From contig LBTZ01000005.1 in assembly GCA_000992325.1 (NCBI GenBank), positions 1-42,694 of the forward strand: a DNA stretch of 42,694 nt, given 5' to 3'. A program made the position numbers and the translations under genes. The DNA is from Parcubacteria group bacterium GW2011_GWD2_38_11. Lineage in GTDB: Bacteria; Patescibacteriota; Minisyncoccia; Moranbacterales; GWC2-37-73. The notes under the pieces were generated by a model. It saw only the letters and a program-made list of their open reading frames with translations. It did not search any database and was not told where the DNA came from. This document shows, in pieces, positions 89 through 33,030 of the stretch (the stretch's first letter is position 1; each line of letters opens with the position of its first letter).

Positions 89-192
89 GCCCCGTTAGAG
101 ATTTCAAGAGTAAGTTTTTAGTAGGTTGTAAAATTTGAGAGATAAATTATAATATTCAAGTTGGATAATAATTGTGAAATCTCTAACGGGGC
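89..192. repeat. ~104-bp element with 17-bp perfect terminal inverted repeats (GCCCCGTTAGAGATTTC), right arm overlapping the tRNA-Pro 5' end
   Basis: 89-105 GCCCCGTTAGAGATTTC; 176-192 GAAATCTCTAACGGGGC; GGGGCGTG at both 82-89 and 188-195. Confidence 0.8.
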
Positions 193-257
193 GTGGTGTC
201 AACGGTAGCACGAGTGATTTGGGATCATTTAGACAGGGTTCGAATCCCTGCGCCCCG
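188..257 (+). tRNA. tRNA-Pro(TGG)
   Basis: Cloverleaf: acceptor GGGGCGT/GCGCCCC, anticodon loop TTTGGGA (TGG), T-arm GGTTCGAATCC; no encoded CCA. Confidence 0.93.
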
Positions 258-260
258 ACA

Positions 261-309
261 TACAAACAAAAACAGGATGACTCAAAAAGTCATCCTGTTT
301 TTGTTTGTA
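261..309. terminator. Long perfect hairpin after tRNA-Pro (probable terminator)
   Basis: 22-bp arms TACAAACAAAAACAGGATGACT / AGTCATCCTGTTTTTGTTTGTA, loop CAAAA. Confidence 0.8.
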
Positions 310-614
310 TTTTGCGCAGGGATTCGAAGGGTATTTCAAAAAAGCAAACGATTTTGCTTTTTTGAAAACCCCGGCTCCGGAGGAGAACTTTCTCTGCGTA
401 CTCGCGAGAAAGTTCGGAGGAGGAGGAATCCCTGCGCCCGCTTTGCATAATGCAGGGATTCGAACCGGCAGAAGCTAAGCAAGATTTCGTTCAGCAGGAC
501 GAAATCGCAGCGTGCGTCGATGAATGTGAGGAATACGAGCATTTAGCGCCACCGCGGGCAAGGAGCTAGTGAGTGTCGACGAACGAGCGACGCGTAAATC
601 CCTGCGCCCCGACA
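310..614 (+). mobile_element. tRNA 3'-tail structured element, copy A (tRNA-Pro-matched)
   Basis: Tracts matching the tRNA-Pro 3' end: inverted 314-328, direct 426-439, inverted 451-466, direct 597-614; modules shared with 18979-19329. Confidence 0.75.
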
Positions 615-18978: not shown

Positions 18979-19329
18979 TTTTGTGCGCTCTTGCTATGGT
19001 TACTCGTCGTTTGTTCGCCGTCGCTCACAATCTCCTCGCCCGCAGTGGCGCTAAATGTTCGTATTCCTCACATTTATCGGCGTTCGCTGCTAAAATTTTC
19101 TGCTGAAAATTTTATAGCTCACTGCCACTGGTTCAAATCCCTCAGTACTCGCGCTCTGAGGGATTTCTCCTCACCCAAACTTTCTCGCGATTACGCGGAG
19201 AAAGTTTTCCTTCGGAGCCTGGGTTTTAAAAAACGCAAAATCGTTTGCGTTTTTAAAATACCCTTCAAATCCCTCAGAAAACAAAACAAAAAACAGACAC
19301 CCTTTGGGGGTGTCAGTTTCTTGTTTTTG
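18979..19329 (-). mobile_element. tRNA 3'-tail structured element, copy B (tRNA-Arg-matched), including a terminator-like hairpin at 19280-19329
   Basis: Copies of the tRNA-Arg 3' end at 19264-19277 (inverted), 19151-19166 (direct, 16 nt), 19130-19145 (inverted), 18979-18991 (direct); modules shared with copy A. Confidence 0.75.
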
Positions 19330-19403
19330 TGCGCTCTGAGGGATTTGAACCCCCGACCCTCTGGTTCGAAGCCAGATACTCTATCCAGCTGAGCTAAGAG
19401 CGC
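19330..19403 (-). tRNA. tRNA-Arg(TCG)
   Basis: GCGCTCT/AGAGCGC acceptor; anticodon loop CTTCGAA. Confidence 0.93.
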
Positions 19404-32837: not shown

Positions 32838-32962
32838 AATTAAACCTCCTACTCCGAATTTTTATGTTAAAAAACTATTAAGATTATGGCATTAAAGAAG
32901 GATAAGAGCAATAATAATTTAAAAAGACATAAGAATATTAGCTTGTTATTTCACTTCTGCCA

Positions 32963-33023
32963 GTTCGATTCCCCCTACCCGCACTTAAAGAAAACAAAAC
33001 AGACCCTAAGGTCTGTTTTGTTT
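32963..33023. repeat. Inverted 20-nt copy of the tRNA-Gly 3' end plus terminator-like hairpin (reduced tRNA-tail element)
   Basis: GTTCGATTCCCCCTACCCGC (32963-32982) is the exact reverse complement of 33032-33051; hairpin 32992-33023. Confidence 0.75.
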
Positions 33024-33030
33024 ATCTATG

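Follow-up and report, generated by a model that had tools for sequence, protein, structure and literature searches.

It is well documented that integrative elements leave displaced fragments of tRNA genes behind (PMC9897764). We analysed a 42,694-nt stretch of contig LBTZ01000005.1 (hereafter the window) from Parcubacteria group bacterium GW2011_GWD2_38_11, whose genome comprises 936 kb in 39 contigs, and in which a small composite element stands behind tRNA-Arg(TCG) and tRNA-Pro(TGG). Like tRNA-site integrative elements, it appears to insert in the 3' part of a tRNA or transfer-messenger RNA (tmRNA) gene, to supply a 3' end, to leave the displaced 3' fragment as a direct repeat and to restore the tRNA. 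Unlike them, it is only ~100-250 bp long, contains neither an integrase nor any other gene, and carries a structured, RNA-like module together with an inverted copy of the target T-arm. Our analysis indicated that such copies are probably non-autonomous mobile elements that target the T-loop of tRNA and tmRNA genes and supply a functional 3' end, which keeps the host tRNA intact.

The arms track the host tRNA

The tails of tRNA-Arg and tRNA-Pro share one order: terminator hairpin, inverted T-arm, module 1, direct T-arm, inverted T-arm, module 2 and a direct tRNA 3' end (Table 1). A sequence-only reading of this DNA had matched the two copies module for module and had given module 1 a length of 97 nt in both; all modules were found where it had placed them, and the measured lengths were the same. 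The covariance model R1 matched module 2 at 19005-19131 behind tRNA-Arg (136.4 bits) and at 465-592 behind tRNA-Pro (137.6 bits). The Pro arms (GCGCAGGGATTCGAA, GCAGGGATTCGAACC and GAATCCCTGCGCCC) all matched tRNA-Pro, and the Arg arms (TCTGAGGGATTTGAA, CTGAGGGATTTGAACC and AAATCCCTCAGAGCGC) all matched tRNA-Arg, with inverted T-arm 2 following the unusual T-loop of its host, GTTCAAAT. In tRNA-Arg, the duplicated 3' end has its proximal copy at positions ~58 to 74; in the tail behind it, the last direct arm is incomplete (AGAGCGCACAAAA only).

We then scored the arms of 71 elements against their hosts. The inverted arm reached 14.07 with its own host, compared with a permuted mean of 9.50 and a maximum of 10.75 (10,000 permutations), and the distal direct copy reached 11.46 (permuted mean 6.03, maximum 7.24). 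As the T-loop GTTCGAAT is common, a sharper test was restricted to hosts with other T-loops; the host's own octamer was present in the inverted arm in 23 of 30 cases, with 3.1 expected. Among the tracked positions are 53-57 (GTCCGA, GTGCGA, GTTCAA), located 5' of the insertion point and missing from the distal copy, which indicates that the inverted arm corresponds to the target as it was before interruption. The arm covers positions 53 to ~65, across the insertion point. Its length clusters at 10-13 nt (T-loop and 3' T-stem) and at 18-22 nt (to the tRNA end), and in the tRNA cases its junction with the module is anchored at position 52-54. Module similarity hardly depends on the host: identity was 0.733 within a genome behind different tRNAs, 0.763 behind the same tRNA in different genomes, and 0.739 where neither was shared. 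The permutation, unusual-T-loop and module-identity results agree with the earlier claim that the arms change with the host tRNA and the modules stay constant, and this claim also withstood the survey of further copies, arm and adjacent tRNA being correlated over the 71 elements.

Module 2 as a structured RNA family

A free alignment of 27 module-2 sequences (129 columns) contained two-sided changes in 24 of 35 predicted pairs. Among 97 covariance-model matches from genomes of the ultra-small bacteria of the candidate phyla radiation (CPR; Patescibacteria), 96.4% of cells were paired and 31 of the 35 pairs changed on both sides. The covariation score of these matches was 0.499, against 0.188 after shuffling (0/500 reached the observed score) and at most 0.080 when slid; their alignment was fitted to the model and leans towards structure, a minor caveat given the effect size and the earlier free alignment. 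The tRNA-sense strand had 42 G-T pairs and only 3 A-C, indicating that it is the folded strand. As judged by these substitution patterns, module 2 is shown to be under RNA-type structural constraint.

An Rfam 15 search with modules 1 and 2 returned gathering-score matches to tRNA and tmRNA only and no known family; matches to MIR1862 were far under the cut-off and reflect a long palindrome. Module 1 is a second hairpin module with boundaries of the same kind, and its 11 sequences showed two-sided change in 12 of 43 predicted pairs. Between the arms, module length was 97-130 nt. Additional module types occupied the same position at L031, L020, L027 and L106. A short form, reduced to the GAGGAATACGAG hairpin, was seen behind Ser-TGA and Lys-CTT, and a CGCCGGAG.. 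form behind Arg-GCG and at L106. The string AAGGAG was considered as a Shine-Dalgarno sequence and dropped, as it varies to GCGAGC in distant copies.

Distribution and hosts

The covariance model detected module 2 in all six genomes of the genus and in 17/19 family members (Moranbacteria); at order level the share was 40/132, and in a phylum sample 12/290. A tRNA or tmRNA stood 31-342 nt upstream on the same strand in 71 of 85 distinct matches, and the hosts comprised 20 tRNA isoacceptors and a tmRNA. At the latter (L100, G291:C4, 1501-1633; confirmed by Rfam RF00023), module 2 lies at the tmRNA 3' end, which is fully duplicated, CCA included, and the insertion carries a copy of the tmRNA's own arm. 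Relatives with the exact pattern were mostly metagenome-assembled genomes (MAGs) named Moraniibacteriota or Parcubacteria group; as the same arrangement occurs in named MAGs of separate projects, it is not an artefact of a single assembly. Viral contigs gave no pattern match, and phages and plasmids no blastn match. The original finding was both real and understated: the family extends phylum-wide and is apparently undescribed.

How the match between arm and host arose

In G005, the inverted arm behind tRNA-Asp reads CCCATCAGCCCC, while the tRNA and the distal copy read CCCTTCGGTCCC; tRNA-Asp of G004 reads CCCATCGGCCCC. Arms at the Trp alleles and at G011 Gln likewise keep an older or other allele. 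These arms lag behind the host, indicating that arms are set at insertion and then fossilise. Two tRNA-Trp alleles were seen, with acceptors ending ..CCGCCCG and ..CACCCCG (L021/L030/L016), and in G001, G003 and G005 the distal Trp fossil holds an allele not found in the live tRNA.

Empty sites were also found. G002 has a tRNA-Trp without the element, followed by a trailer similar to the distal flank of the G005 site, which is occupied; the Trp site is empty in G004 too, and carries module 1 in G000, G001 and G003. At L046 (G011 Gln-CTG), hairpin, arm and module are nearly identical to those of Gln-TTG in G008, and the highest between-host identities (module 0.977, hairpin 0.93) are attributed to this pair from the printed sequences. 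The distal copy at L046, AATCCTAGCGCTCCAAC, resembles the tRNA-Gln(CTG) 3' half of G000 and G003. In the simplest reading, a block entered at the T-loop and replaced the 3' half, to which the tRNA 5' half then adapted. Together, the lagging arms, L046 and the empty Trp sites show insertion at the T-loop with displacement of the original 3' end.

The sequence-only reading had offered templated copying at insertion or gene conversion between tRNA and tail as the two sources of the match. Ongoing conversion as the chief cause is unlikely, since arms at Asp, Trp and Gln lag behind host alleles; templated copying is one candidate, in a choice that was incomplete, as the element may itself bring a tRNA 3' half (seen once, L046/G011) or the arm may be a guide that specifies the target. 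Two other accounts were set aside. A perfect palindrome does not begin every insertion, as loci with an intact distal copy mostly have inverted arms of 10-13 nt, and a block always carried whole from the donor fails to explain the tracking of positions 53-57.

Proposed mechanism and rival explanations

An inserted copy consists of the tRNA with its 3' end and hairpin, the inverted T-arm, the structured module and a displaced second tRNA 3' end, running from ~position 58 to the mature end. At insertion, the target T-arm may be copied into the 5' flank of the element; alternatively, the 5' flank may be a guide that pairs with the target, so that only matching targets are hit. The inverted arm would afterwards be frozen and decay. 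An enzyme supplied in trans would recognise the folded module on the tRNA-sense strand, either as RNA or as folded single-stranded DNA. As a whole, we put forward only tentatively an RNA-centred CPR element in which 10-22 nt complementary to the intact T-loop across the insertion point, carried or acquired, are used for targeted insertion into tRNA genes, unlike described introns, retroelements and bridge-RNA systems.

Several observations weigh against the reading as non-autonomous mobile elements. No match to reverse transcriptase (RT; PF00078) or Y1 (PF01797) was found in G000, G003 and G004 despite their many copies. The IS110 recombinase (PF01548) exceeded the cut-off in 12/132 genomes, none in the genus, and RtcB is near universal, absent from G004 and does not mark bearers. 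An enzyme was also sought by co-occurrence, and RT, Y1, IS110 and RtcB each failed to mark the bearers: RT was present in 27/40 bearers and 40/92 non-bearers, a weak association only, and within the genus Y1 had no match in G000 or G002-G005 and was present in G001 only. That an enzyme is missing today is weak evidence, because a genome may have lost it since and MAGs are incomplete. Excised forms were not observed. The arm is mismatched to its host at L089, one of several such cases, and 14 of the 85 module-2 matches had no called tRNA within 700 nt upstream; at two of these (L011, L012) the tRNA is present, farther upstream or interrupted, and others have degenerate T-arm-like sequence upstream. 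Finally, the Pro and Lys copies are very widely kept within the genus, and a host function is possible for them.

A satellite of tRNA-site integrases, which we consider unlikely, would be a circle bearing the tRNA 3' end (attP), hairpin, inverted T-arm and module that recombines at the T-loop by means of a trans-acting tyrosine or serine integrase, the arms matching since each lineage carries its own tRNA's 3' end. In its favour are a direct 3'-end duplication that stops at the mature 3' end with the original trailer kept distally, the block transfer between two tRNA-Gln species with the 3' half replaced, and the tRNA gene fragments that integrative elements are widely reported to leave (PMC9897764). 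It sits less well with a module without integrase coding, and a circle-borne 3' half (58-76) does not account for an inverted arm that tracks target positions 53-57. Nor are ordinary att sites known to carry an inverted copy of this kind, which also counts against it.

Selection could keep the match if the tail were a host-beneficial RNA, transcribed by read-through, in which the inverted arm pairs with the tRNA or with the distal arm and regulates maturation. Its patchy presence at orthologous tRNAs, the degraded copies, the very different tRNAs occupied in different genomes, the terminator-like hairpin between tRNA and module and the lag of the arms behind the host make this improbable, although the strong RNA-type covariation, its retention behind tRNA-Pro in most of the genus and the stem of inverted and direct arm that closes the module speak for it. 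Least probable of all are local DNA processes only, namely fold-back copying at the terminator palindrome, with quasipalindrome correction between the inverted repeats and no target-specific insertion. Hairpin and arms do form one long near-perfect palindrome at Pro, Lys and G004 Tyr, and arm lengths do fall into two clusters; however, the inverted arm is often just 10-13 nt where the distal copy is complete, the Asp, Trp and Gln arms lag behind host changes, the module junction stays at 52-54 in tRNAs, and the tmRNA junction is similarly precise even though the arm there has no sequence in common with the usual ones.

The structured-RNA family spread over the CPR bears a target-complementary arm. 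Should this arm be a guide, or be templated by the target, it would represent a new way of aiming DNA insertion. Otherwise, the copies would still be a mobile element able to replace tRNA 3' halves, leaving fossils of old tRNA alleles that record how tRNAs evolve in reduced genomes.

Features of the window and further copies

The sequence-only reading had proposed a search for a third host tRNA. This was found in the window in tRNA-Gly(TCC), whose tail (32941-33029, minus strand) holds a hairpin, a perfect 20-nt inverted T-arm matching its own tRNA and ~20 nt from the start of module 2. This degraded copy (32941-32982, minus), which had not been noted before, is followed beyond the module 2 stub by unrelated sequence.

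Table 1. Coordinates of the three tRNA-tail copies in the window
Feature	Position	Strand	Basis
Host tRNA-Arg(TCG)	19329..19403	-	ARAGORN; Rfam RF00005
A/T-rich hairpin adjoining tRNA-Arg, terminator-like in both directions	19279..19328	-	sequence
Inverted T-arm 1 (Arg), TCTGAGGGATTTGAA, reverse complement of tRNA-Arg T-loop/T-stem	19264..19278	-	
Module 1 (Arg), 97 nt, two hairpins	19167..19263	-	length equals Pro copy
Direct T-arm/acceptor copy 1 (Arg), AAATCCCTCAGAGCGC	19151..19166	-	
Inverted T-arm 2 (Arg), CTGAGGGATTTGAACC	19130..19145	-	
Module 2 (Arg), predicted three-way-junction structured RNA and 3' hairpin	19005..19129	-	covariance model, covariation
Distal direct copy of tRNA-Arg 3' end and trailer, incomplete	18979..18991	-	
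Host tRNA-Pro(TGG)	187..259	+	ARAGORN
Hairpin behind tRNA-Pro, perfect 23-nt arms	260..313	+	
Inverted T-arm 1 (Pro)	314..328	+	
Module 1 (Pro), 97 nt	329..425	+	
Direct T-arm copy 1 (Pro)	426..439	+	
Inverted T-arm 2 (Pro)	452..466	+	
Module 2 (Pro)	467..592	+	covariance model R1
Distal direct copy of tRNA-Pro 3' end, AAATCCCTGCGCCCCGACA, with module 2 3' end	593..614	+	
Inverted T-arm matching tRNA-Gly(TCC), GCGGGTAGGGGGAATCGAAC, 20 nt	32963..32982	-	
Module 2 start, truncated, behind tRNA-Gly (degraded copy)	32941..32962	-	

At least five more loci were found in the same genome, at tRNA-Trp, -Lys, -Gln, -Asn and -Leu; the tRNA-Lys locus consists of two tandem units, and the tRNA-Gln copy stands some 780 nt from its tRNA. 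A ~140-amino-acid open reading frame between tRNA-Gln and module 2 in G000 was considered as cargo. It had no Pfam match and sits behind a terminator resembling those downstream of other tRNA-Gln genes, and is more likely an ordinary downstream gene.

Some loci had further peculiarities. In G000 and G003, tRNA-Thr(GGT) is split by a ~196-nt insert behind the anticodon (L013, 2080-2349, minus; L030, 756-1028, plus); this tRNA is intact in other genomes, and the insert looks intron-like and is below every Rfam gathering score. For tRNA-Asn(GTT) of G000 (L012, 1287-1426, plus), the call includes a 66-nt insert within the anticodon region; a module-2 tandem lies downstream of this tRNA. Modules at L028, L060, L081, L098 and L105 have no tRNA 5' half, and the similar degenerate T-arm-like strings upstream (GTTCTAACTTCGT..) are possibly dead tRNA copies. 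At L102 (G184), an apparently exact ~63-bp direct repeat, consisting of 3' end, loop, inverted arm and the first 8 module nt, flanks the module and would permit its loss through recombination; similar module stubs occur at L028, L061 and L037.

Comparison with known systems

REP/REPIN sequences with RAYT (Y1) are, like the present element, small, non-coding, palindromic, dispersed and probably mobilised in trans. The present element differs in standing behind tRNA genes, and 5/6 genus genomes have no Y1 match; no GTAG/CGTC tag was seen by eye beside the palindrome, the module boundaries reading GGGCAG.. and ..GACGCGGA in A1. With integron attC cassettes it shares short arrays, placed behind a fixed gene, in which palindromic junctions and cargo alternate, but here the junction is host tRNA sequence, and a conserved RNA-like fold takes the place of a gene as cargo. 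Group I and II introns and IStrons also combine structured RNA, insertion in RNA genes and possible target pairing; in contrast to these, the present element leaves the RNA uninterrupted by duplicating its 3' end, lies in the T-loop and not the anticodon loop, and its modules have no Rfam intron match.

Complementarity to the tRNA 3' half and target duplication at tRNA 3' ends are shared with tRNA-primed retroelements and casposons. The present arm is anchored at position 53 and usually ends at the T-stem, not at the tRNA-3'-end primer site of retroelements, and three bearer genomes have no RT match. Terminal inverted repeats, a casposon trait, were not seen by eye at the inferred ends. The recombinase of IS110 bridge-RNA systems (PF01548) exceeded the cut-off in no genome of the genus. 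The sequence-only reading had proposed an undescribed system; neither Rfam 15 nor the open-access literature searched, outside which most subscription papers lie, contained such a family. In its manner of working, its closest parallel is a satellite of tRNA-site integrative elements.
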